Assembly (NCBI GenBank): GCA_013298775.1
Contig: JAAFIV010000010.1
Location: 1-64,000, forward strand
Direction: 5' to 3'
From: Ignavibacteria bacterium
GTDB taxonomy: Bacteria > Bacteroidota > Ignavibacteria > Kapaibacteriales > UBA4661
Length of the DNA: 64,000 bases
Of the stretch, positions 14,011-63,169 are shown in pieces; the first letter of the stretch is position 1; every line of letters begins with the position of its first letter. Under the pieces are notes generated by a model, which was not told the DNA's origin, did no database searches, and was given only the letters and a program-made list of their open reading frames with translations. Position numbers and translations under genes: made by a program.

Positions 14011-17000
14011 ATGCGTTTGGCTGCTTTTTCCCGTTATTTCATTGTTGTTTCTCTACTACTGCTCGCGCCGCGCCTTTGGGCGCAGCCAGGGAGTCTTGAC
14101 CTGAGTTTTGCACAAGCAGGCGGAGGTCCAGACAACTTAGTAGAGTGTCTTGCCGTTCAAAATGATGGAAAAGTGATTATCGGCGGGGGCTTTAGCAATT
14201 CGCACGGACAGCCTCGTGCTAATCTTGCTCGCCTGAACGCTGACGGGACACTGGATCTTAGCTTTACTCCTCCGAGCTTTAGTCCATATGTGTTTGCCAT
14301 TGCTATTCAAGCGGATGGAAAAATTCTTGTAGGAGGCTCTTTTACTTCTGTGCGTAATAGAATTGCTCGCCTTAATGCCGACGGTACACTTGATAACAGC
14401 TTTGGACAAGTGGGTCTGGGACTTGATAATTCTGTCCGAGCCATTGCTGTTCAAAGCGATGGAAAAATTATTGTGAGCGGGGAATTTGAGAACTACAATA
14501 CTCCATCGTCTATACAACGTGGGAAAATTGCCCGCCTCAACGCCGACGGTACACTCGACAATACCTTTACAACACCAAATCCAGGGTTTAATGGTGTGCG
14601 AGTAACTACTCTTGCCATTCAAAGCGATGGTAAGATCCTCGCAGGAGGAAATTTTTTTCAGTATGGAGCAACCGCTCGGGGTAATCTTGCTCGTCTAAAC
14701 TCCGATGGCACACTCGACTCTTTTACCTCATCTATTTCGCTTGGTCCATTAAGTGCCGTCGTTCTTCAAAGTGACGGCAACATTCTCGTTGCAGGGAATG
14801 TTACAAATAGAATTGCTCGGCTTTTGGCTAATGGTATGACTGATGCTGCCTTTAATACTAACGTAGCCGCCTTGGCATTAAACGCTGGTGTAAACTCCGT
14901 TGCTTTTCAAAGTAACGGGAAAATCATTATTGGAGGATCGTTCAGCACACCACCACGCAACAATATTATGCGAATGAATGCGGACGGTACGATAGACGCC
15001 AGCTTTGGACCAACGATGGGGGGGGTGAATGGCAGTGTGAATGCTATGTTTCTTCAAACCGATGGAAAAATCGTTATAGGCGGTGGTTTTGGCTTTTACA
15101 ACGCAATACCTCGTTTGAGAATCGCCCGCATCAACGGCGGCGAACAATACACCTGGGATGGCTCGGCAGGCACCGACTGGCAAAACCCCGCAAACTGGAC
15201 TCCCGATCGCACCACCCCTGCTGTAACGGACGTTCTTCAATTCCCATCAGGAGGACCTTGGACACCCACAAATATCCCCAGCCAAACCCTTGGCGGACTG
15301 ATTATTGATAACTCCACCGTTACCTTGCGCGGCGCGTCATCAAATATACAACTGACCGTAATAAATCCAGGCAATAGCGCAGTATTACAAGGAGCGGCTC
15401 CTGTTCTCAATCTTGGCGGGGTGAATGGTAATGCGGATAATCCGGTAACTATCACCATGGCTGCCGGTGCGACCTTTATTGTAGGGGGAACCTCAACTCT
15501 CAACGTGAGTACGGCTGCTATTCGCGGCGCAGGAAATTTTATCATGCTCGCTTCTGTTACAGGTCGTTTTATTACTAGCCGCGCTGACGGTATCAATGGG
15601 ATAAGCCAAAATACAGGTTCTATCCAGTGTTCAGGAATGGTTAATTATGATATGGGAAATAAGAGGTTTGAATTTCGTGGTCTGCCAGGTATTGACCAAA
15701 CAGCAAATATGCAAGCCGTAGGCACAAAACCTGCTGTCATTGCTGTAACGAACTTGGGAAAAACGGGACCAAATACATTATTCATCAACAGTAATCTTAC
15801 CGTATCACAGGCTTTTGTGCCTGCTACCATTGACGGAACTATCGAAGTTATGCAGGGCGTAACGTTTGGATATTTGACTAATGGTCCGACGCTCAATCCC
15901 GCAGCTACCCTGCGTGTACGCGGCACATTGAACGCTGGGGCAAGTACGACGGTGAATGATGGTACTATCGAGGTTGCTGGTGGAAGTATTACTGGTGCAG
16001 GACTTTTCACGTATTCCGCAGCTTCCCGCCTCATCTACTCTGGTGCGGGCAATCTCACTGCGGGACCTGAATTTCCCACAGGTGCTGTCATGCCCGCCGA
16101 TGTGTACGTGCAGAAGTCCTCTGGCATACTCACTCTTCAGCTTGCTGGCTACACTATCAACCGCAATATGTATGTTTCCTCCCCAGTTTTCGTTCCTTAT
16201 GCTATGCCAATTCCAAGTTCAATTACAATAAATTCGTCAGCTTTGCTGGAGGTACAAAATGGTGGGACGGTCTCGGTTGCTGGCACTCTCTCGGTTATAG
16301 GTGGTGGACTTGCTCGTATCAAAACTGGCGGAACGTTGGAACAGATTGCTCCGAACGGCGTAATATCTGCTATTGCTCCGCTCACCTATGAAGTTGGCTC
16401 TACACTGCGGTATAGCGGTACGGGGGCTATTATGAGCGGGGCTGAACTCCCAAGCATCCTCCCTGCCAACCTCAATGTAAATAATGTTGGAACTCTTACC
16501 TGTGGGGCGGGAGTAATTCTTCAAGGAACAAGCACGATTGGCACTGCCAGCGTGATGCAGATTGCTAGTGGAAGTGGGCAGATAACAGATTTTGTCGGCT
16601 CTTTGACGCTGAATGGTATCATAAGAATTCCTCCTGGTATAAACACTCTAAAATTCAGCGGTCCGCTTTCGCTGAATGGCTCTATTGACGGGGCGTTTCT
16701 TACTGGAAATTCAAATTTGCAGTTTGTTGGAAGTGGCTCTGTTACTGGTGCGCTTGGGTTTCTTGGTAATACCTATCGCGGTGCAGTGCTGCTCGACCGT
16801 CCAGGAATGCGCCTTACACTTGGCTCATCGCTCAGTTTGACGAACAACACCCTACCGCTCACGCTCACGCAAGGCGTTCTGGTAACGAGTGCTGCAAACC
16901 TTCTGACCATAACACTGGACTTCTTTGATTCCATTCTTGGCGGCAATGCGAATGCCTACATTGATGGACCGCTTGCGCGGAGGCTTCGCGCAAACTGGAC

Positions 17001-50064: not shown

Positions 50065-53000
50065 ATGGAATCTACACTACTTTACGAAAGCCAAAAGTCG
50101 AAAATTTTTGTGCGTAAGCGGGACGAAAAGTGGAATCAATCTACGGTTCTGAAGGTTCTGAATTACGAATATCCCTCTCCAAGCGATATTGCGCATTTTT
50201 ACAATGAGCAAGAAATTTTGGATGGATTAAATCTGAATGGCGTACGCCACGTTTTGGAGCGGACAAAAGACCACAACCGCCATGCAATGGTGCTGGAATG
50301 GGTCGAAGGGGAAAATATCCATGAAGCATTCCGCCAGCATCGGTCGGATATTGGTCGTTTCCTGCGTACTGCCATCGCGCTTACCGAAACCCTTGCGGGA
50401 CTGCACCAACACAACATCATCCACAAAGATATTTCCTCCACAAACGTTATTGCGAACCTTGAAAAAGGCAGCGTTTGTTTGATTGACTTCGGCATTGCCA
50501 CCAACCTCGACCTCAAGCACACCTATCTCGGAAATCCAGAACGTTTGGAAGGAAACCTGCGCTATATCTCGCCTGAGCAGAGCGGGCGCATGAATCGTAT
50601 CGTGGATTTCCGTTCGGATTTGTACTCGCTCGGTGTGGTCTTGTACGAGACGCTTGCTGGTGTGCCGCCTTTTACTGCCAAAGATGCAATGGAGCTGATT
50701 CACGCGCACATTGCGCACACGCCAGCACCGCTTTCCGAGGTAAATCCAGCAGTGCCGGAGCAGATTTCACGCATTGTAGGGAAACTTCTTGCAAAAAATG
50801 CGGAAGACCGCTACCAATCCGCAGTTGGTGTAAAGGCTGATTTGGAGCGGTGTTTGCGCGAATGGGAACAATCAAAAAAAATTGAACATTTCCCGCTTGC
50901 AAGCGTTGATTTTTCTGGCAAGTTTATTATTTCGCAAAAACTCTACGGACGCGAAAACGAGATTGAACAAATTCTGAACGCTTTCCATGAATGTGCTGCG
51001 GGAAAGCTCGGTTTAATGACCGTTGGCGGGTATTCTGGGACAGGGAAGTCTGCGCTTGTGAATGAAGTTCATAAGCCAATTACCGAAAAACGCGGATATT
51101 TTGCATCGGGGAAATTCGACCAATTCCAACGCGCCGTACCGTATTCCGCGTTTATTGATGCCTTCAAAGAATTGATTTCGATTCTTCTCACCGAGCCAGA
51201 AGCAAAGCTGGCTGAGTATAAGCATCGCATCCAAGAAGCTCTCGGCGAGGAAGGGCAAGTTCTCACGAATGTCGTCCCGACGCTGGAATATATCATCGGC
51301 GAGCAGCCGCCTTTGCCAGAAGTGGGCGGTGCTGAGGCGCAGAGCCGCTTTAATTACGTTGTGCGAAAGTTTGTTCATGCCTTGTGTACGCCGGAGCATC
51401 CCGTTGTGCTGTTTATTGACGACCTACAATGGGCGGATGCTGCTTCGTTGAACCTGTTGAACGCGCTCATGGATGACACCGAAGGCGCGTATTTGCTGTG
51501 TATTTGTGCGTATCGTGATAACGAAGTAAGTACATCGCATCCGTTTATGCTGCTTGTGAATGACCTTCAGAAAAAAGTACCAATTTTTCGCCAAATAACG
51601 ATTGGGAATCTCGCGCTGAATGACATTGAAAGCCTGATTGCTGCTTCCTTGGGGCAAGAACAAGCGGCAGTGGGCGAACTTGCTGCGTTGGTGCATGAAA
51701 AGACGCATGGAAACGCATTTTTTGTTACGCAATTTTTGAAATCTCTAGCCGAAGAGCGGCTTCTGACCTTCGATTATCAATCCTACAAGTGGCAATGGGA
51801 TGTGCAGAAAATCCGCGAAAAAAACATTACTGATAACGTGGTGGAATTGATGGCAAGTAAAGTTTTGCGCTTGCCCGCCCAAACGCAAGAAATTATCAAG
51901 CTGGGAGCGTGTTTGGGCAGTAGTTTTGATGTTGCGACGCTGCTCCTTGTTTCTGATTTTTCCGAAGAAGACGTGCTGAAAAATTTGAAACCCGCTCTTA
52001 AAGAAGGCATGGCGTTTCCTTTAGGCAAGCATATTTACAAATTTTCCCATGACCGCATCCAGCAAGCCGTGTACTCGCTTCTTTCGGACGAGCAGCGTGT
52101 TTCCACGCACATCCGAATTGGGCGATTGCTGCGCGATAAATTTACAGAAGAAGAGCGCGAGAATCGTTTGTTCGACGTTGTGAATCACCTCAACACTGGC
52201 TCTGCGCTCATTACCAATGCTGCCGAACAAGAAGAACTTGCTGCGCTGAATATCAAAGCCGCGAAGAAATCCCGTGAAAACTCAGCCTTTGATACTGCAC
52301 TTCAATACGCCGAAACAAGTTTGCGTTTGCTCACCAACGATGCGTGGAAAAGCCAGTACGAACTCGCGCTCGCGGCTCACACTGAGGCGACAGAGGCTGC
52401 GTACTTGAGCGGTGATATTGAAAAAATGGATGGATATTTTCAAATTATTTTGAGCAAAGCTCAGAACATTCTTGAAAAAGTAAAACCCTACGAAATCCGC
52501 ATTCTTGGCTACAAAGCAGAAAACAAGCTGCATGACGCGATTCGCGTTGGACTGGAAGTCTTGGAGCAGCTTGGTGAGCCGTTTCCGAAAAAACCGAATC
52601 TGCTCTTCGTGGCTCAAGGCTTAATTTCGACAGCACTTTCCTTGCGCAAATACTCGGATGAACAAATTTACGCGCTCCCGCTCATGACCGACCCCTACAA
52701 GCGAGCAGCAATGCGGATTATCGCCGGCATTACCTCATCCATCTATTGGGCTTCGCCGAATTTATTTCCGCTTGTGGTATTTCGCATGGTGTCTCTCACC
52801 TTGAAGTATGGCAATCACCCCGTAACGTGTTTTGCGTTAGGAACATACGGCGTAATTATGTGCGGCGTGTTGGGTGCGATGCGAGCAGGATATAAGTATT
52901 CAAACCTTGCGCTGACGTTGTTGGATAAAATTGATGCAAAAGAGTGGAAAGCACAGGTGTATTGCAGTCCATACGCCTTGATTGTCCACTGGAATCGGCA

Positions 53001-55509
53001 CGTCGAGGAGACGCTTATTCCTTTGCGCGATTCGTTCCAAATCGGCATGGAAACTGGTCTGGTGGAATTTTCGTGTATCAATTCCAACATTTATTGTATC
53101 CATTCTTTTCTCATGGGAAAGCCGCTTGAGCGTGCCGAAGAAGAGACGAAGTCCTTTAGCCAAAGCTATTTCCACTTGCAGCAAATGACCAATTTCAACT
53201 ATAACGAGGTCTATCGTCAGGCAATGTTGAATTTTCTTGGTCGCTCGGAGAACCCACTCATGCTGGTCGGCGAGGCATACGACGAAGTGCAAATGAGCAA
53301 ACAAAACCTCGACCGCGCCGACAAAACAGGGCAGTTCTTTTACAACTTCAATAAGTCCATTGTCAGTTATTATTTTCAAGATTTTGAGAATGCACACAAA
53401 TTTGCTGGCGAATCGGAAAAGCTCTTGGAAGCGGTGTTGGCAAAATTTGAAGTGCCAAATCATGCGTTTTACAGGGCATTATCCGCCACTGCGTTATATC
53501 CTACAAAGTCAGGTTTCGAGCGGGTTAATCTATTGCGCATAGCACGAAAATATAGTGGAAAACTCAAAACGTGGGCGAAAACTGCGCCGGAGAACTTTCT
53601 ACATAAGCATATTCTGATACAAGCAGATATTGCGCGGGTTACAGGCAAAATTGATGAAGCACGTGTTGGGTATGATTCAGCGATTGCACTTGCAAATAAG
53701 CATGGTTATCTTCACGAAGCTGCGCTTGGCTACGAGCTTGCGGGAGCTATGTACGTGGGGCAGAAGGCGACCGACCTTGCGACATTTTACCTGAAATCCG
53801 CGTACAATACCTACCGCGAATGGGGCGCAGCCGCAAAACTCCGCGACTTGGAGCAACGATATTCCACGTACATTTCGAGCGTGAATACGGCGGGAGCATC
53901 GCTGTTGCAAACGGTTCAAGCGGGAACCACGACTGCTTCCACAAGCCGCTTCGCTTCTGGTGCGCTCGACATGGGAACGATTCTGAAAGCCTCCACAACG
54001 ATTTCTGGTGAAGTGGTGTTTTCTCGTTTGCTTGGCGTAATGATGCGTATTGTGATGGAAAATGCCGGAGCGCAGCGTGGAATCTTGCTTCTCGAAGACA
54101 ATGGCGAATTGTGGATTCAAGCACAACGCACGCTTGCAGGAGCAACCGCAGGAGCAACCGTAGGAACAACCGCAGGTGCAGGTGAGGGAAGCGAGACGCT
54201 TGATTTGGAGCGCATTGCCTTCAAAAGTGCGAACGCCGCTTCAAACCTTATGCCGGAGAGCATTGTGCAGTTTGTACAACGTTCCAAAAAGGTTGTTGTG
54301 GTGGACAATGCCGAAGAAGACAAACGCTTTAATTCCGATGGCTATATTCTTGCCCAGAAGCCGCAATCGGTCTTGTGTTTGCCGATTTTGAATCAAGGAA
54401 AATTGCTGGGGATTTTGTATTTGGAACATCGCTCCACAACGGGCGCGTTTACCAGCAATCGCGTGGAATTATTGTCATTGTTATCAGGACAGATTGCGGT
54501 GTCGCTGACAAATTCTCTGGCGTATGAGCAATTGGAGCAGAAAGTAGCCGAAAGAACACAGGAATTGGCGCGAGAGAAAAAGAATATCGAGATTGCAAAC
54601 GGCGAACTTTCGGAAAGAAACGAGCAGTTGCACGTAACGATGAACAATCTCAAGCAAACACAATCGCAGCTTGTCCAAGCAGAAAAGATGGCATCGCTGG
54701 GTGTGCTGACGGCTGGCGTGGCTCATGAAATCAATAATCCTATCAATTTTATTTCGGGTTCGATTCCGTCTTTGGAACGCAACGTACATGCGATGATTGC
54801 GACGCTGGATAAATTCAACGAAATAAAACCCGAAAAGGTGAGTAGTGAAAATATTGAGGAAATTCGTACAACTCTTCGCGCCATTCACGACGAGCAACAA
54901 TCAAAGCGGCTTCCCAAAATGATGTCGCAAGTTCCGACGCTCTTTACTGCCATCAACGGAGGAGCAGAGCGAGTGATTGAGATTGTACGCGGCTTGCAGA
55001 GCTTTTCGCGCTTGGATGAAAACGCCCTCAAAATGATGTCGGTACAAGAAGGTATTGATTCCACACTCGTTATTTTGCAATCGCAGTTTAAAGAACGCGG
55101 CGTTCATGTTGAAAAGAACTATGGCGCAATTCCAGAAGTGGAGTGCTTTCCGGGGCAAATCAACCAAGTGTTTATGAATGTTCTCGCTAACGCTCTCTAC
55201 GCCATTCCAAAGGAGAAAAGCGATGGCATTGTGCATATTTCTACGGAGATTGCAAAAGATGATGAAAATATCGTCGAAATTCACATCCGCGACAACGGAA
55301 TCGGTATGACAGAAGAAATTCAAAAAAGTATTTTCGACCCATTTTTTACCACGAAAAAAGTTGGCGAAGGCACGGGACTAGGGCTTTCGATAGTTTTGGG
55401 AATTATCGAAAAACATCACGGTACAATTACCGTGCAGAGCGCACCGAATGAGGGCGCGGACTTTTGTGTACGCTTGCCTTTGAAGCAAGTGCGGCAATCG
55501 GCAAATTAA
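50065..55509 (+). CDS. Ser/Thr kinase-AAA ATPase-GAF-sensor histidine kinase fusion
   Basis: 1,814 residues with the layout known as trifunctional Ser/Thr kinase/ATP-binding protein/sensor histidine kinase. The kinase domain is residues 1-270: K30 in VLKVL, H120-K-D122 catalytic loop, DFG at 141-143, and SPEQ in place of APE; the glycine loop is degenerate, as seen elsewhere in this family. The ATPase domain has a P-loop GYSGTGKS near 321-328 and Walker B VVLFIDD near 448-454. A long TPR-like helical region runs from about 700 to 1270. A GAF domain (about 1297-1480) and a coiled coil lead to the histidine kinase: H1554 in GVAHEINNP, then N box, DNGIGM, and FDPFFTTK with GTGLGLS. It is cytoplasmic and is probably the sensor for the operon that it opens. 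The ligand is unknown. Confidence 0.92.
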   Translation: MESTLLYESQKSKIFVRKRDEKWNQSTVLKVLNYEYPSPSDIAHFYNEQEILDGLNLNGVRHVLERTKDHNRHAMVLEWVEGENIHEAFRQHRSDIGRFLRTAIALTETLAGLHQHNIIHKDISSTNVIANLEKGSVCLIDFGIATNLDLKHTYLGNPERLEGNLRYISPEQSGRMNRIVDFRSDLYSLGVVLYETLAGVPPFTAKDAMELIHAHIAHTPAPLSEVNPAVPEQISRIVGKLLAKNAEDRYQSAVGVKADLERCLREWEQSKKIEHFPLASVDFSGKFIISQKLYGRENEIEQILNAFHECAAGKLGLMTVGGYSGTGKSALVNEVHKPITEKRGYFASGKFDQFQRAVPYSAFIDAFKELISILLTEPEAKLAEYKHRIQEALGEEGQVLTNVVPTLEYIIGEQPPLPEVGGAEAQSRFNYVVRKFVHALCTPEHPVVLFIDDLQWADAASLNLLNALMDDTEGAYLLCICAYRDNEVSTSHPFMLLVNDLQKKVPIFRQITIGNLALNDIESLIAASLGQEQAAVGELAALVHEKTHGNAFFVTQFLKSLAEERLLTFDYQSYKWQWDVQKIREKNITDNVVELMASKVLRLPAQTQEIIKLGACLGSSFDVATLLLVSDFSEEDVLKNLKPALKEGMAFPLGKHIYKFSHDRIQQAVYSLLSDEQRVSTHIRIGRLLRDKFTEEERENRLFDVVNHLNTGSALITNAAEQEELAALNIKAAKKSRENSAFDTALQYAETSLRLLTNDAWKSQYELALAAHTEATEAAYLSGDIEKMDGYFQIILSKAQNILEKVKPYEIRILGYKAENKLHDAIRVGLEVLEQLGEPFPKKPNLLFVAQGLISTALSLRKYSDEQIYALPLMTDPYKRAAMRIIAGITSSIYWASPNLFPLVVFRMVSLTLKYGNHPVTCFALGTYGVIMCGVLGAMRAGYKYSNLALTLLDKIDAKEWKAQVYCSPYALIVHWNRHVEETLIPLRDSFQIGMETGLVEFSCINSNIYCIHSFLMGKPLERAEEETKSFSQSYFHLQQMTNFNYNEVYRQAMLNFLGRSENPLMLVGEAYDEVQMSKQNLDRADKTGQFFYNFNKSIVSYYFQDFENAHKFAGESEKLLEAVLAKFEVPNHAFYRALSATALYPTKSGFERVNLLRIARKYSGKLKTWAKTAPENFLHKHILIQADIARVTGKIDEARVGYDSAIALANKHGYLHEAALGYELAGAMYVGQKATDLATFYLKSAYNTYREWGAAAKLRDLEQRYSTYISSVNTAGASLLQTVQAGTTTASTSRFASGALDMGTILKASTTISGEVVFSRLLGVMMRIVMENAGAQRGILLLEDNGELWIQAQRTLAGATAGATVGTTAGAGEGSETLDLERIAFKSANAASNLMPESIVQFVQRSKKVVVVDNAEEDKRFNSDGYILAQKPQSVLCLPILNQGKLLGILYLEHRSTTGAFTSNRVELLSLLSGQIAVSLTNSLAYEQLEQKVAERTQELAREKKNIEIANGELSERNEQLHVTMNNLKQTQSQLVQAEKMASLGVLTAGVAHEINNPINFISGSIPSLERNVHAMIATLDKFNEIKPEKVSSENIEEIRTTLRAIHDEQQSKRLPKMMSQVPTLFTAINGGAERVIEIVRGLQSFSRLDENALKMMSVQEGIDSTLVILQSQFKERGVHVEKNYGAIPEVECFPGQINQVFMNVLANALYAIPKEKSDGIVHISTEIAKDDENIVEIHIRDNGIGMTEEIQKSIFDPFFTTKKVGEGTGLGLSIVLGIIEKHHGTITVQSAPNEGADFCVRLPLKQVRQSAN

Positions 55510-55556
55510 AGCGGTAGAGTTATTTTCTCACTATTTCACTCTCAATATTTGGCATT

Positions 55557-56789
55557 ATGAATGAACTTCCAGTAATTCTTTACGTGGATGACGAACCAAG
55601 CAATCTAGCGATGTTTGAGGCGGCGTTTTTTGAGTTTTACGATATTTATACAGCTCAAACCATATCGGAGGCAAATGCTATCCTTGATGAGCATCCCATA
55701 CAAGTTATCCTGAGCGACCAGCGTATGCCAGAGATGACGGGTTCGCGCTTTCTCGCGCTTTCGCTTGGGGACTGCCCCGATGCTGTCCGCATGATTGTAA
55801 CGGGCTTTTCCGATATTGAAGACGCGATTGCTGCGGTGAACGAAGGGAAAATTCATCGCTACATTAAAAAACCTTGGGACAACAACGACCTCAGAGCAGC
55901 CATTGATGAGGCGTTGAAGTTTTATAGCGTCAAAAAAGAGCGGGATGATTTATTGCAAACACTTGAGGTGAAGGTAGAACAACGAACACAGGAATTAAGC
56001 CAAGCAAACGATAAACTTGCCCAACAGAATCAGCAACTTGAGAACTTGAATAAAGAAAAAAATGAAATTCTTGAAATAGTCTCACACGATTTGAAGAATC
56101 CATTGTCAGCAATTACTGGTTTTACCGAATTATTGCTGTTTGTAGGTGAGAAAATTTTTACAGCTGAAGCGTTTGAATATATCGGGCAAATACGCTCGGC
56201 GGTGAGCCGCATGATGGAATTGGTCTTGCAAATTCTTGATTCGCATTTGTTGGAAGAAGGGCGTATCAATATTAATCCTATTCACTTCTCGTTTGATGGT
56301 ATTGCCAATGCGTTTGTAGATGAGTACCAATCTCGTGCTGAGGCTAAAAATATCACGATCCATTATCAAAACTCCTCTAAAAATCTCATTTTTGCGGACG
56401 AGCAGAAATTGTATCAAGTCATTGATAATCTTGTGTCGAATGCCGTAAAATACTCACCTCATGGCAAAAATGTATGGATGTTGGTCGAAGATACCGATAC
56501 TTCTACCCTCAGTAAAAGTTTTCATCCAAACAGCGTTGTGTTGGCGGTGCGCGACGAGGGTCCGGGGCTTGCGCCCGACGAAATGGAGAAATTATTTCGG
56601 CGTTTTTCACGATTAAGTCCACAGCCCACGGGTGGGGAGAATTCAACGGGGTTGGGCTTGTACATCGCAAAAAAGCTCATCGAAGCTATGAAAGGGCGCA
56701 TTTGGTGCGAATCTACGCTTGGTGAGGGATGCACGTTTTTTGTGGAATTGCAGATTTCACCCGCACCCGAAGTGAAAGAGCTTCCGTGA
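55557..56789 (+). CDS. Response regulator-histidine kinase hybrid
   Basis: 410 residues. The N-terminal receiver domain has the acidic pair D11-D12, the phospho-acceptor D54 (LSDQRMPEM), a conserved Thr (VTGFSD) and a switch Lys (IKKPW). A coiled coil (about 120-165) links it to a histidine kinase with H177 in VSHDLKNPLS, an N box (DNLVSNAVKYS), DEGPGL and GLGLYIAKK. There is no DNA-binding domain, so output must pass through phosphotransfer or partner binding. It starts 47 nt after the large kinase, a likely cognate partner, and only a few bases before the lipoxygenase frame, which indicates co-transcription. Confidence 0.93.
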   Translation: MNELPVILYVDDEPSNLAMFEAAFFEFYDIYTAQTISEANAILDEHPIQVILSDQRMPEMTGSRFLALSLGDCPDAVRMIVTGFSDIEDAIAAVNEGKIHRYIKKPWDNNDLRAAIDEALKFYSVKKERDDLLQTLEVKVEQRTQELSQANDKLAQQNQQLENLNKEKNEILEIVSHDLKNPLSAITGFTELLLFVGEKIFTAEAFEYIGQIRSAVSRMMELVLQILDSHLLEEGRININPIHFSFDGIANAFVDEYQSRAEAKNITIHYQNSSKNLIFADEQKLYQVIDNLVSNAVKYSPHGKNVWMLVEDTDTSTLSKSFHPNSVVLAVRDEGPGLAPDEMEKLFRRFSRLSPQPTGGENSTGLGLYIAKKLIEAMKGRIWCESTLGEGCTFFVELQISPAPEVKELP

Positions 56790-56807
56790 TGATTGTTTGC
56801 ACTAGGG

Positions 56808-59048
56808 ATGTATTCTCCGCGTTTTCAAACCATATTTTTCAATATCTCTATGACACCGCAACTCCTTGAAACGACCCTACCTGTGCTTGATACGACACAT
56901 CCTGACCACATTTGTAAAGAATGCGAGAAAAAGGCTGGGATTGAGTACAAGAACAACGACGGCTTCTTTACACCGCGTTTGAGGAGTATCAATCATCTTG
57001 AAGTTGGGTATTCAAAGATTATTTCCAATCCCTTTACAATTTTCCTTGAGCTGCTCTATGTCGGCTTCAAGCAGCTTCGTAAGACATGGCAAAATTTTTG
57101 CAAATGGCTTTTTCCACGTACTCCTACGATAAAAAAACAACGAATTGATAGTACGCTTGTCGGTAGTCTGATGTTTGCAGAAAAAGCCGACAAAAACACG
57201 CCCATTCACAATATGCAGCTTGAGTTTTGGGCAAGGACATGGCTTGGAACGTGGCGCAAACTCAGCGAGGGATATAGCAATCATCAGGGCGAATTTGCGT
57301 TGCCTTTTCACCTCCGCGCTGCTCGAAACGTCTGCAATCGGGTGTTGTATTGCGAAATTCACGGAATTGACCATATTCGCTACGATGGAGATACACCCCG
57401 CCTCATTCCGACAGTTTTTAAGCGACTGACTATACCCAAAAAAGATTTGATTGGAATGCGGTACAATCTCAGGACTATCCACCTTGAGTATTGGGAATAT
57501 CGAACAGATTTTTCTACACCTCGCGCCCGCATTGAGGATTCCGATACGAACTCACCGGAATACTATTCAAAAGGGCGCAGCGATGCCATGATTGAGCAAG
57601 TGATACCGATAGAATTAACCAAACTCAAGCATCTTGAGCAAATACAATTCGCCCCAGAAACAATCAGCATAGAACAAATCCAAGCTGAGTACCCCAGAAA
57701 TCTTACGCGCTGCATTGAGGAAAAACTTCCCGGGTATTCACGGGGAGATGACTGGTTCGGAAAGCGCATGATGAACGGCATGAATAAAGGTGCTTTCCTG
57801 AAAGACCGCGAAAATCCAGAGTATTATTGGATAAAATATTTTGGCGTGTGCAATTACCACCACAATGACAAATACGCCTTGCCAACAGCAGAAATTCAAT
57901 TCAAATTCAAAGATAATGGACTGCCTGAACCGCTTACAATCGTGCTAACGGGGCAGTTGAACGCATTTGAAAAAGACCCTTTCCAAAAACATACCTTTAC
58001 GCCTAAGGACGGTGAACACTGGCTTGCAGCCAAGCGTATTGCTCGCGTCAGTGGGGCAACCAGCACGGAGGTGGATGAGCATTTTACAGGAACGCACCTG
58101 AACGCAGAACAGTTTGCTCTTGCTGCCTATCGCAATCTCCGTCGTAATCCAGTGGCGTATTTGCTGCTTCCGCACCTCAAAGAGGTTTCGCTTATCAATC
58201 ATACCGCAGATAAACTCTTACTTAATGGCTATTTGCAAAGCGCGACGGCATTTACCTATAAAGGTATTGAACACAGGACGCGAGATATTCTCGGCGTGCA
58301 AGATTGGTGGGGCTGGAAGCCAATGGAAGTGCTGAGTGATGCGCACACCTACGCAAAAGCCGAACAGCTTTTCTGGGAGGTAACGGGACAGTTTGTTGAT
58401 ACATTTTTTGACCAATACGAAGCAGAAATTAAGCATCATTGGCACGAAATCTGGTGCTTTTCCGAAGACTTGGTGCGCAATAGTGTTCCTGTTTTTCTCT
58501 CGGATGTGGATATTGATGCACTTCCTCTTCATGAACGCAAACTCGCCAAAGAACGGCTCGAATACTACACCTTCCAATACAGCTTTCAACTGGGTGCGCC
58601 ACGTGTGGAATACAATGGCGAAAAGAAAGTCATCACCCCAATTACTCAGAATCCCAGATTTGATGACGCTTCCAACGATATGCAGAATCTGAAAGATGCC
58701 TGCCGATACGCAATCATGGTGGCAACCTTCATGCACACGTGGATAAATGAGCATCAGTACGACGATATTGGTGAAATTCTGTATAATTGCCTCGGCTTGC
58801 GGTTTGGGACAGGGAAAAGCGGAGTTCTCGCACCAGAAAACGATATGTCCATCGCGCCAGATTTGACCAGTGGTACGCAAATGATGTGGTTTGCGAATTT
58901 GCTTTCTCGCACCGAGTACGGCTTTATCACGAACAACGAAGAAGGCGATGTCCATCCAGCATTTATCAGCCTTCTGGAGGAGAGAAGAGCGCAGTTTCTG
59001 GAACTGGGAGTAGATATTGATGCCATTGAATCCAGAACCAACATTTAG
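56808..59048 (+). CDS. Lipoxygenase family protein
   Basis: 746 residues from the ATG at 56808; a TTG at 56793 and an ATG at 56850 (MTPQLL) are alternatives. It should be an iron dioxygenase that adds O2 to polyunsaturated fatty acids to give hydroperoxides. Evidence: the lipoxygenase signature DDWFGKRMMNGMN (about 314-326); TPKDGEHWLAAK; iron ligands H425 and H430 in HFTGTH; the RNPVAYLLLPH...IN segment after them; H643 with N647 in FMHTWIN; and isoleucine as the last residue (TNI), whose carboxylate binds iron in this family. The N-terminal about 250 residues are not an evident PLAT domain. One part (YSNHQGEFALPF) resembles a transthyretin-like beta-sandwich, and another (near 67-100) is hydrophobic and could touch membrane. 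The gene begins just after the hybrid kinase and is followed 33 nt later by the haem protein. Substrate and regiospecificity are unknown. Confidence 0.9.
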   Translation: MYSPRFQTIFFNISMTPQLLETTLPVLDTTHPDHICKECEKKAGIEYKNNDGFFTPRLRSINHLEVGYSKIISNPFTIFLELLYVGFKQLRKTWQNFCKWLFPRTPTIKKQRIDSTLVGSLMFAEKADKNTPIHNMQLEFWARTWLGTWRKLSEGYSNHQGEFALPFHLRAARNVCNRVLYCEIHGIDHIRYDGDTPRLIPTVFKRLTIPKKDLIGMRYNLRTIHLEYWEYRTDFSTPRARIEDSDTNSPEYYSKGRSDAMIEQVIPIELTKLKHLEQIQFAPETISIEQIQAEYPRNLTRCIEEKLPGYSRGDDWFGKRMMNGMNKGAFLKDRENPEYYWIKYFGVCNYHHNDKYALPTAEIQFKFKDNGLPEPLTIVLTGQLNAFEKDPFQKHTFTPKDGEHWLAAKRIARVSGATSTEVDEHFTGTHLNAEQFALAAYRNLRRNPVAYLLLPHLKEVSLINHTADKLLLNGYLQSATAFTYKGIEHRTRDILGVQDWWGWKPMEVLSDAHTYAKAEQLFWEVTGQFVDTFFDQYEAEIKHHWHEIWCFSEDLVRNSVPVFLSDVDIDALPLHERKLAKERLEYYTFQYSFQLGAPRVEYNGEKKVITPITQNPRFDDASNDMQNLKDACRYAIMVATFMHTWINEHQYDDIGEILYNCLGLRFGTGKSGVLAPENDMSIAPDLTSGTQMMWFANLLSRTEYGFITNNEEGDVHPAFISLLEERRAQFLELGVDIDAIESRTNI

Positions 59049-59081
59049 CCAAGTGTACACCACCACCATTCAGGAAAAACC

Positions 59082-60185
59082 ATGAAGACAGAACGATTTT
59101 CATTGTGGCTATTGATAAAAAAATGGGTCAGCGCATTCATTGATAAATGTATTCTTTTCTTCACGGCTCGTTTTTTCGGGCTAGGCTTGGCACTATTTCT
59201 TTCCTTTCCACATCGCAATCGCATGAGCCACGATAACGGCATTGGCGGGCTGGGGTGGCTGAAAATTGTGAACAATCCTCTTTTTCCGCCGCATGATTTT
59301 TTTGCTCCTGGTCGGCGGTTTCCTGTGCGTATTCGCCACGCTTCTGCTACATTTTTGGATGATGGCATGAATTGTATTCGCAGTATTTCGATAAAATTTT
59401 CGCACCATCATTTCAAAAGCCCATTCGATATTGAATGCAACACGAGCAATCTTAATTTATTTTGGTCTGCGGTCAGCTTTCTGAAGTTTGCAAAGCTCAG
59501 AAAGCAGCAATGGGGCGTGCAATATGCCGAGTATTACCGAAAATACCCCGATGGTTTGAAGGGCGCACAAAAGGCGTTACGACGCGACCCAAGTTCATTT
59601 AACAATCTTCATTATTATTGCTTAACGCCATTTTTATACGTCGGTACGGATAATTTGAAGCGATACGCCAAATATCGTGTTTTGCCAAACAATGACGAAC
59701 CTGAAACGGGTATCAACTCCAACCCAAGCGACTGGGACACGTGCAACCAGCGTGCTTTGCCGCACGAAACAAATGGGCGAAATTTTTTGAAAGATGAGTT
59801 TGTAGAACGCGTCAAAGCCAAAGGTGCAGTATATCGTTTACAAATCCAAACGCGCTTGGCGAATGACGACGACGACCCAGAAATCTTCAACAATATGAAT
59901 GCTTGGGATGAGAACCTGTTTCCTTGGCATAATCTCGCTACGTTTGAAATAGAGGAAGCCCTTAATTGGACTGAAAGCACAAAAACCTCGTTTTCGGTGA
60001 ATAATATGCCCAAAACACTGGGAATTCTACCAGCAGCGTCAGTGTACGACTATAACTCTTTGAATTATTTGCGTGCGCATTCGGAAATTGCTCGCAAGGC
60101 ACGTTTGCTTTCGTACAAATTTTTTGGAATGGTTCCACCCATTCCCGATAATGATAATCGGAATGTTGCTGTGTGGGGAGAGTAA
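59082..60185 (+). CDS. Catalase-related haemoprotein, allene oxide synthase-like
   Basis: 367 residues, far shorter than a true catalase (about 480 or more) but close to the coral allene oxide synthase domain (about 373). The catalase core is recognisable: PVRIRHASATF with candidate distal His H86; RSISIKF matching the catalase RGFAVKF; DIECNT with N120-T121 matching the distal Asn region; and near the C-terminus R341-x-x-x-Y345 (RLLSY), matching the catalase RxxxY haem ligand and followed by only 22 residues. The first 45 residues are hydrophobic or amphipathic and may anchor it to membrane. Such enzymes convert lipoxygenase hydroperoxides to allene oxides or cleave them. Adjacency to the lipoxygenase supports that role. 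Arg occupies the position before the distal His where catalases have Val, so the exact reaction is uncertain. Confidence 0.8.
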   Translation: MKTERFSLWLLIKKWVSAFIDKCILFFTARFFGLGLALFLSFPHRNRMSHDNGIGGLGWLKIVNNPLFPPHDFFAPGRRFPVRIRHASATFLDDGMNCIRSISIKFSHHHFKSPFDIECNTSNLNLFWSAVSFLKFAKLRKQQWGVQYAEYYRKYPDGLKGAQKALRRDPSSFNNLHYYCLTPFLYVGTDNLKRYAKYRVLPNNDEPETGINSNPSDWDTCNQRALPHETNGRNFLKDEFVERVKAKGAVYRLQIQTRLANDDDDPEIFNNMNAWDENLFPWHNLATFEIEEALNWTESTKTSFSVNNMPKTLGILPAASVYDYNSLNYLRAHSEIARKARLLSYKFFGMVPPIPDNDNRNVAVWGE

Positions 60186-60562: not shown

Positions 60563-60718
60563 GCAGCCTGTGTCCACTTTATTTGAAAAAACCTGCTTGA
60601 AGCAAGACTGTTCCAAACAAGATTTTCTTCATTAAAAATTGAGAAATTTTTGTACATTGTTTTTGACTGAATACCGCTTCAAATCTATTGTGATGTCTTT
60701 TTTCTTTTTTTGTTCGCC

Positions 60719-63169
60719 ATGAAAAATATACTGCTCTTCGTCCTTGGAAGTATCGTCTTTGTCCCTCTCTCAAGTTTCGCACAAGCGTTGTCGGTTGATA
60801 GTCTTCTTAATGTCGTAAACTCAAGAACACAAGAGGACACAAGCCGCGTCAATGCTCTCAATGAACTCGCTTTTGCCTCATTGCAAAAGAATACAGCTAA
60901 TACGCTGAAATATGCGCAAGAGGCGAAAGTATTAGCCGAAAAGCTCGGTTTTATGCGAGGTTTAGCGCGAGCCTTGAGCAATATCGCTACCTATCACAGT
61001 TTTTTGAGTGATTACCCAACCGCACTAGAATTTTTGAAACAATCGCTGGAAATAGCTCGCAAGGCTGATGATAAGGTGGGAATTGGTCGTGCGCTGAATA
61101 ATTCTGGCTTACTCTATCGGCGTTTAGGCGATTACGCACCTGCACTGGATATGTTTTCCCAAAGTTTGGAAATTAGTGAATCCACAAACAATAAGCGGTT
61201 AATGGCGACTACGCTAGGAAATATCGGCATTGTGTATCAGGAGCAACGCAATTACACGAAAGCAATTGAATACATGAATCGCACAGTTTCGGTCGCGGAA
61301 GAGAGTGGCAATACAACCGCCGTGCTAGATGCAATGCTGGTTCTGGGGGATATTGCGAAAGCACAATCCGATACTGCAAAGGCAAAAGACTTGTACCAAC
61401 GCGCTCTTTTCCGCGCTCAGTCAGCGAAAAACGAGCGAGCAATGCTTTCCCGCGCTCTGGATGCCATTGCGGGCGTGTTCCAACGTGCAGGAGAGCAGGA
61501 TAGCGCGATTGCGTATTCTGTCCAAGCACTTGCTATTCACGAAGCGGTCAATGCTCGCTTTCGCCTTGTGAACACGTACAACTGCTTAGGGCGAGCATAC
61601 ACGCAAAAGCAGCAGTTCGATTCGGCAACATTTTACCTTGAAAAAGCTCTGGAAATCGCGCGGTTTATTAAGTCCAAACGAGATGAGATAGATTGTTTGG
61701 AATCCTTATCAATTCTTGCTGAAACAGAAAAAAATGTACCTAAAGCACTCGATTTGCATAAGAAATTTTCAACCTTGCGCGATAGCATTTACTCGGCAGA
61801 ATCCTCCGTGAAATTTGCTGCCGCGCAGAACCGTATTGATGCGCAGAAGAGGGAACAGGCTCGTTTGCAAACAGAATCCACGCAAGCGTTGGTACGAAAT
61901 TCGCTTATTGGCGGGCTTACAGCCGTTGCATTGATTAGCTTTGTGCTGTTACGCTCGAACAGGCAGAATCGCAAGCGCAATGACCAATTAGCGCAGCAAA
62001 ACAAGGAAATGACCGAGCAGCAGACTCAACTTGCCGAACAAACCGCGCAAATTCAAGCACAAAACCGCGAAGCTGCCGAGCGAAACGCCCAGCTCGACGA
62101 GATGCGCCGCCGCTCCGAACTTGCTCGCGAGCATCTTTCGCAGAACGTGGAAACGATTTTGCAGGTTATGGACAAAATGGCAGAAGGGGACTTGCGCCAG
62201 CACAGCGAACTTGCGCTCACAGCGCATTCTGCCGATACCACGAACCTTGCTCCTCACGAAGTCGAAAGCAGGGAAGTGATTCGCCTTCGTGCGGGCTTGA
62301 AGGAAACCATCGAAACAATGCGTACTATTATTGGACAATTAAGCCACGCAACTGGCTCCGTTGCTGATGCAGCAGAGCAAATTGCCAGTGAATCAATGTC
62401 GTTATTGCATATTGCAAAAAATCAAAATTCAATAGCCAATAAAGCAACAACAGTAATTAAAGAAACATCGAATTCTCTTGAGGAAAACGCAGATCACGTG
62501 CGACATACGAGCGAAACAGCTCTGCAAAACAAAACCCGTGCGTTGGAAGGCGGCGAGACGATTCAACAAGCAATTCAGAAAATGCGGAGTATTGCAGAAG
62601 TGATTCGCTCCAGCGCAGGAATGGTACAGAAACTCGCCGTTTCGAGCGAGGAAATAAGCGATTTTGTAAAAGAAATTCAGGAAATTGCGGACCAAACAAA
62701 TCTGCTTGCCTTGAATGCTTCAATCGAAGCTGCCCGCGCAGGCGAGCAGGGGCGCGGTTTTGCGGTTGTTGCCGACGAAGTGCGCAAACTTGCCGAGCGC
62801 AGTGCTGAGACCACCAAAAACATTGCGAAAATTGTTCAAAGTATTCTCCGCGAGACGGACGCTGTTGAGCGGGCAATGAAATCTGGCACGGCAGAGGCGG
62901 AAGAAGGTATCGCGCTTGCGGACTCAACGATGAGCGTCTTGCAGCAAATCATTAGCGGTGCAGACACGAATGCAAGCGCACTTCGGCAAATCGTGGAAGC
63001 CAGTACCACGCAGCTTCACAATGGCAAACAAGCCTCCGAAGCAATCAACGATATTCTCCAAAGCAACGAAAGTTCTGCTGCTTCTATCCGCTCCATTGCT
63101 GGGCTGGCGGAGCAACTGCACACACTAACGCAAGAACTGGAAACAAACGTTGCGCGTTTCCATTTGTAA
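60719..63169 (+). CDS. Methyl-accepting chemotaxis protein with TPR sensor domain
   Basis: 816 residues from the ATG at 60719; an ATG nine bases upstream would add MFA before the signal peptide and is less likely. There is a signal peptide at residues 1-21 (cut after SFA), then about seven to eight TPR-like helical repeats at 25-360 predicted to lie in the periplasm. One membrane segment lies at about 395-414 ([16 protein letters not shown]), followed by a coiled coil 415-480 and a HAMP-like stretch (MAEGDL). The chemoreceptor signalling domain shows the conserved hairpin tip at 655-695 ([20 protein letters not shown], then [18 protein letters not shown]). It should signal to CheA/CheW or a related pathway, though no such genes are in the window. 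Replacing the usual Cache or 4HB sensor with TPRs suggests it senses a protein or peptide. It is transcribed separately from the oxylipin operon. Confidence 0.92.

Follow-up and report, generated by a model that had tools for sequence, protein, structure and literature searches.

The gene run at 50065–60185

The window, which is the whole stretch of 64,000 nucleotides that we analysed, carries a run of four genes on the forward strand between positions 50065 and 60185. The first gene (50065–55509, +) encodes a giant sensor of 1814 amino acids in which a Ser/Thr kinase, AAA_16, GAF and histidine kinase follow one another; the Pfam domains Pkinase, AAA_16, GAF and HATPase_c are all found in this one protein, together with HKD, DFG, Walker A and H-box motifs. 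The second gene (55557–56789, +) encodes, by Pfam, a 410-aa fusion of a response regulator receiver with a histidine kinase, and a gene of this kind is found in the same place only in the congener locus L006 (L006 9949–11175). The third gene (56808–59048, +) encodes a lipoxygenase of 746 aa, and the fourth (59082–60185, +) encodes a catalase-related protein of 367 aa with a predicted allene-oxide-synthase-like fold from which the proximal tyrosine has been deleted. The original prediction had described these last two open reading frames as adjacent genes, and we found both at their predicted positions, on the same strand and separated by 33 nt; it had overlooked the two kinase genes upstream. 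Because the pair is found again in genomes from several phyla, a chance pairing can be excluded.

Upstream of the run, at 4–49586, there are four giant open reading frames on the + strand (4183, 2690, 3063 and 5622 aa), each with a T9SS C-terminal sorting tail. The next gene downstream (60710–63169) encodes TPR repeats and a methyl-accepting chemotaxis signalling domain in one protein. The organism's own genome contains about 100 Por secretion (T9SS) tails, which bears out the earlier description of a T9SS-bearing host. We looked for a link between T9SS and the four-gene run and found none.

In a Pfam search, the lipoxygenase scores 31.3 bits against PF00305, for which the curated cut-off is 23.6. 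Its best solved relative is the Cyanothece lipoxygenase 5ek8 (E 2.4e-97), which it matches over residues 118–745; compared to 5ek8, the window protein has about 60 extra N-terminal residues and has Ala467 where 5ek8 has Gly. The start codon is uncertain, with the starts of relatives falling near residues 27–33. The iron ligands H425 and H430 (58080–58097, +), H643 and N647 (58734–58748, +) and the C-terminal Ile746 (59043–59045, +) are invariant across 14 aligned homologues. Thus, the complete iron site of three His, one Asn and the terminal Ile that had been proposed is present, and as judged from these residues the first gene of the pair is a lipoxygenase with all five predicted iron ligands.

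The haem site of the catalase-related protein

The catalase-related protein has no match among Pfam and NCBIfam profiles; against solved structures, it matches coral allene oxide synthase 1u5u with an E of 9.7e-52. The AlphaFold2 model (pLDDT 87.7) aligns to 1u5u with a TM of 0.82 and a Z of 41.2, as compared to a Z of about 25 for true catalases, so that the predicted fold is closest to coral allene oxide synthase and the placement of the protein in the catalase superfamily holds. On the combined strength of alignment and model, we regard the second protein as a true homologue of the coral catalase-related allene oxide synthase. The modelled secondary structure includes a hydrophobic N-terminal helix at residues 8–41 (59103–59204, +), with a hydropathy peak at residues 24–42, which is a possible site of membrane attachment.

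To place the haem site, we used the key residues of the coral enzyme, which are R64, T66, H67, R102, N137, Y353 and R360 (PMC5617202). The original prediction had named H86, N120 and the motif R341-xxx-Y345 as catalase haem-site features, and these fared differently. H86 lines up with coral H103; it is H50, the counterpart of coral H67, that is the distal His. N120 (59439–59441, +) does correspond to the distal coral N137, and so this residue, like the homology to coral allene oxide synthase, stands. The profile alignment rules out R341-xxx-Y345 as the proximal motif: R341 is coral R360, and Y345 is not conserved, with Leu or Ile taking its place in some close homologues and others lacking the residue. 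The arginines that coordinate haem in coral (R64, R102 and R360) are kept as R47, R85 and R341, and H50, N120, R85 and R341 do not vary even among very diverse sequences. The distal His sits within M48-S49-H50 (59223–59231, +), where Met replaces coral Ala65 and a Ser that is invariant in the clade replaces coral Thr66.

The proximal side is different. In coral, this stretch reads R349-V-A-V-Y353-T-W-V-Q-H-L-R360, and the corresponding stretch of the window protein, R331 to R341 (60072–60104, +), is one residue shorter. In a profile built from 15 bacterial relatives, the window protein included, R331 aligns with coral R349 and R341 with coral R360, leaving a one-residue gap exactly at Y353. 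The same gap is present in all 15 testable clade sequences (the window protein and 14 relatives), every one of which has Met-Ser-His where coral has Ala-Thr-His. This register agrees with the structural alignment to human catalase, at whose end model residue 346 falls on residue 370 of 8sgv. Coral-like Ala-Thr-His and R-xxx-Y are both retained in two bacterial relatives, L018 and L069; the branch that separates the tyrosine-keeping from the tyrosine-less sequences has support of 100/98, although the tyrosine-keeping sequences form long branches. In the models, the proximal helix is broken at 333–334 in the window protein, whereas it is continuous (304–327) in L018. The clade alignment contains no other conserved candidate for an Fe ligand in that helix. 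Haem may still be bound, as the retained arginines would suggest.

These data bear on what the second protein does. One reading is an ordinary two-step oxylipin pathway, in which this protein would work as a haem enzyme through another axial ligand and make allene oxide or short aldehydes from the lipoxygenase product, and the kinases would merely control it. The homology to coral allene oxide synthase in both fold and sequence, the retention of the distal His, Asn and three propionate arginines, the presence of a lipoxygenase in all 16 haem-type-gene carriers checked and a fusion of the coral allene oxide synthase–lipoxygenase type in Thiohalocapsa (L017) are all consistent with such a pathway; the deletion of the tyrosine with the helix broken at that point, the lack of another conserved ligand candidate there and the replacement of Thr66 by Ser argue against it, and we consider it a possible but doubtful explanation. 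The loss of the tyrosine could also mean that the protein is a dead scaffold without haem that only supports, activates or anchors the lipoxygenase as the sole enzyme of the set. The locus L009, in which a lipoxygenase N-terminal domain is fused to the haem-type protein while the full lipoxygenase is elsewhere, fits this idea as well. However, a dead pocket would not need His50, Asn120, R85 and R341, which are invariant over diverse sequences, and we find a scaffold role improbable.

Because Y353 is deleted in all 15 clade members, we do not file the window protein as an allene oxide synthase or hydroperoxide lyase, and it would be unsafe to attach either label ahead of haem data. The proposal that the pair yields allene oxides or cleavage products thus draws no support from the motifs, the proximal ligand being deleted. 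The clade amounts to a natural experiment on the catalase fold, in which the distal site and the propionate arginines are kept and the axial tyrosine is deleted, and it cautions that a protein called allene oxide synthase on no more than its fold and short motifs may be misnamed.

The giant AAA_16 sensor and the spread of the trio

To find relatives, we scanned named genomes and found 12 loci, the congener's own contig among them, in Rhodobacterales, Flammeovirgaceae, other Bacteroidia, Ignavibacteria, Saprospiraceae, Planctomycetota, an unclassified bacterium and several Gammaproteobacteria. A sample of 395 genomes of the phylum added four loci besides that of the window, so that the haem-type gene is present in 5/395; the lipoxygenase profile is above cut-off in six of these genomes, five of which have the haem-type gene. 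Among 246 genomes sampled from the phylum of L013 there was one added locus, L069, in which the tyrosine is kept, and among 369 genomes from the class of Thiohalocapsa there was no further locus. Viral contigs contained no relatives; on plasmids, there were only weak catalase-like matches, in Sinorhizobium, and lipoxygenases of cyanobacteria that have no haem-type gene beside them. On the Sinorhizobium fredii NGR234 plasmid (L021 5880–11933), two adjacent open reading frames match the haem-type protein, one of them annotated as catalase, and their neighbours are genes for a di-haem cytochrome c peroxidase and a patatin-like phospholipase.

This distribution is relevant to a further explanation, lipid-peroxide detoxification, in which the pair would remove oxidised lipids and the sensor would report oxidative stress. 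Membership of the catalase superfamily and the GAF domain of the sensor would suit such a function, but a lipoxygenase produces hydroperoxides and does not remove them, and occurrence in 5 of 395 genomes is too patchy for a general stress response; we regard detoxification as very unlikely.

In all 15 readable Met-Ser-His loci (the window, L006, L007, L009, L010, L012, L013, L014, L015, L016, L017 and L029–L032), a homologue of the sensor or an AAA_16 protein of similar design adjoins the pair, or adjoins the haem-type gene alone where the lipoxygenase is elsewhere. L008 is cut by a contig end, and the haem-type gene of L012 is truncated ahead of the tyrosine position, which is therefore unreadable in that locus. 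By comparison, the window organism's genome has only two full-length sensors of this kind, and from these two copies we estimate that about half a percent of its positions lie within 3 kb of one. The 15 loci span Ignavibacteria/Bacteroidota, Alpha- and Gammaproteobacteria, Planctomycetota and one unclassified bacterium. The sensor has a histidine-kinase output in the window, L014, L031 and L032, and in L006 by its sequence; a nucleotide-cyclase output in L007, L009, L010, L016, L029 and L030; and a SAM-cyclase-AAA_16 design in L015 and L017. In L013 it combines a kinase with AAA_16 and has only a weak cyclase match. No sensor was seen near the tyrosine-keeping genes of L018, which is a 6.3-kb contig, and L069, these two bacterial loci being the whole contrast group. 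Thus, what recurs is a trio: a lipoxygenase, a tyrosine-less protein of the allene oxide synthase family and a giant AAA_16 sensor whose output is a histidine kinase or a nucleotide cyclase.

The 1814-aa protein shares its architecture with other Ser/Thr kinase–AAA_16–GAF–histidine kinase (or cyclase) sensors; what sets the present case apart is that, across phyla, this design goes together with a lipoxygenase and a catalase-related gene. A known anti-phage defence system was considered and rejected, since the sensor's matches to PADLOC defence models cover its generic kinase part only, with no whole-protein match; the lipoxygenase, the haem-type protein and the 55557–56789 protein match no PADLOC model. 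The second giant kinase of the organism's own genome (L020 7442–12814) is near a 752-aa open reading frame (14100–16358) whose start resembles catalase-peroxidase by eye. At L061 (8240–17263), there is a lipoxygenase without a haem-type gene and a giant kinase two genes away, and between them is a 472-aa open reading frame with weak lipoxygenase similarity and no Pfam match.

The order of the genes varies and the parts remain together. All four genes of the window's run are found in the congener L006, and their order there is unchanged. The order is sensor–lipoxygenase–haem in L007 and L029, sensor–haem–lipoxygenase in L030, lipoxygenase–haem–sensor in L031 and L032 and lipoxygenase–sensor–haem in L014, and the ends and starts of neighbouring open reading frames overlap by a few bases in L009, L014, L030 and L008. 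Between the three parts, the identity matrices are correlated, with r values of 0.79, 0.72 and 0.68; shared history alone also produces such a correlation. Within the genus of the window organism, a lipoxygenase is found in two of eight genomes. The haem-type protein of the window is 65% identical to that of Rhodobacterales as compared to 56% for the congener, and these identities therefore suggest that the cassette has moved by horizontal transfer.

Some individual loci have further features. In the Flammeovirgaceae MAG, the fusion of a lipoxygenase N-terminal domain to the haem-type protein lies at L009 9533–11047, and the complete lipoxygenase, on another contig (L065 4268–7647), overlaps the gene for a cNMP-binding/HisKA protein. 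In Thiohalocapsa halophila (L017 5467–8190), the haem-type protein is fused to the lipoxygenase in the coral order (907 aa); despite this order, it has Met-Ser-His and the proximal tyrosine is absent. Downstream of the congener cassette, on the opposite strand (L006 5995–6471), a 158-aa open reading frame resembles by eye the C-terminal end of an FAD amine-oxidase-type oxidoreductase, and Amino_oxidase genes adjoin L015 as well.

A candidate signalling cassette and its relation to known systems

The neighbourhood, with a conserved giant sensor kinase or cyclase next door, points to signalling, a possibility that the original prediction overlooked. A lipid-oxidising enzyme, a modified haem-fold protein and a large sensor would together suit a signalling role. 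Our preferred explanation, to which we give somewhat less than an even chance, is that the run at 50065–60185 represents a copy of an oxylipin signalling cassette that spreads by horizontal transfer and in which the lipoxygenase feeds the tyrosine-less partner and the sensor relays. Close to the inner face of the membrane, the lipoxygenase would convert a polyunsaturated acyl chain to a hydroperoxide. The partner, held by its hydrophobic N-terminal helix, would take the hydroperoxide into a pocket with the distal His, Asn and the arginines that in coral hold the haem propionates, and it could either bind the hydroperoxide as a sensor, with haem on some other ligand, or rearrange it by altered chemistry. 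The giant sensor would then read the state or the product of the partner, and its output would be by phosphorelay here, with the response-regulator kinase at 55557–56789, and by cyclic nucleotide in relatives.

In favour of this signalling cassette are the invariable adjacency of the sensor in the readable Met-Ser-His loci, the lipoxygenase in every carrier checked, the deletion of the tyrosine in every testable clade member while it is kept in L018, L069 and coral, where the sensor is absent wherever readable, and the two different output types. Against it, the retained arginines, distal His and Asn would fit a working haem enzyme as well, and the giant sensor could control something else in the cell. 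As a source of substrate, a PUFA synthase was sought by profile search and rejected, with none above cut-off in 13 carriers, and fatty-acid desaturases are present in the window organism's genome; the substrate may therefore be external or internal. As the set recurs in several phyla, oxidised fats may serve some bacteria as messages that they send or sense. A broader version, which we think rather unlikely, is a multi-phylum form of oxylipin signalling in which a catalase-fold protein traded its tyrosine ligand for hydroperoxide sensing, fed by a lipoxygenase and read by an AAA_16 sensor that signals through cyclic nucleotide or phosphorelay; if true, this would be a prokaryotic parallel to eicosanoid signalling.

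Fused pairs of a lipoxygenase and a catalase-related protein have been described from corals and cyanobacteria (PMC5617202, PMC11719350, PMC10813956). The coral AOS-LOX and HPL-LOX fusions (Plexaura 1u5u/3dy5 and Capnella; PMC5617202) likewise combine a catalase-related domain with a lipoxygenase, and the window protein is 36% identical over the coral segment, with the same predicted fold, distal His and Asn and propionate arginines; at coral L150 it has Phe, as in coral hydroperoxide lyase. In contrast to the coral fusions, the window genes encode two separate polypeptides and have a giant sensor next door, and the haem-type protein has Met-Ser-His for Ala-Thr-His, a deletion at Y353 and Thr90 at coral K107. 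The cyanobacterial pairs of Acaryochloris and Anabaena (PMC11719350) are a bacterial pairing of the same two enzyme types reported as fusions; our comparison with them covers enzyme type and gene arrangement. One sentence in PMC11507377 describes two separate genes in an operon, yet the pair is also termed a fusion there. Therefore, although the two open reading frames are indeed separate, as the original prediction had stressed, we do not claim that separate genes alone are new.

In the literature that we searched, which left out most subscription papers, no paper linked lipoxygenase genes with sensors of this kind, and as far as this literature goes, neither their association with giant sensors nor the tyrosine-less clade seems to have been described. 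Bacterial oxylipin signalling is known mainly from the diol synthases of Pseudomonas aeruginosa, where oxylipin-dependent quorum sensing involves these oxylipin-forming enzymes, encoded beside the regulator OdsR (PMC6377657). The arrangement in the window resembles that system in placing oxylipin-forming enzymes next to a regulator; however, the enzymes are unrelated, and the regulator is of the LysR type there and a giant kinase or cyclase here. If the signalling reading is true, lipid oxidation in these bacteria would be tied directly to second-messenger and phosphorelay signalling.
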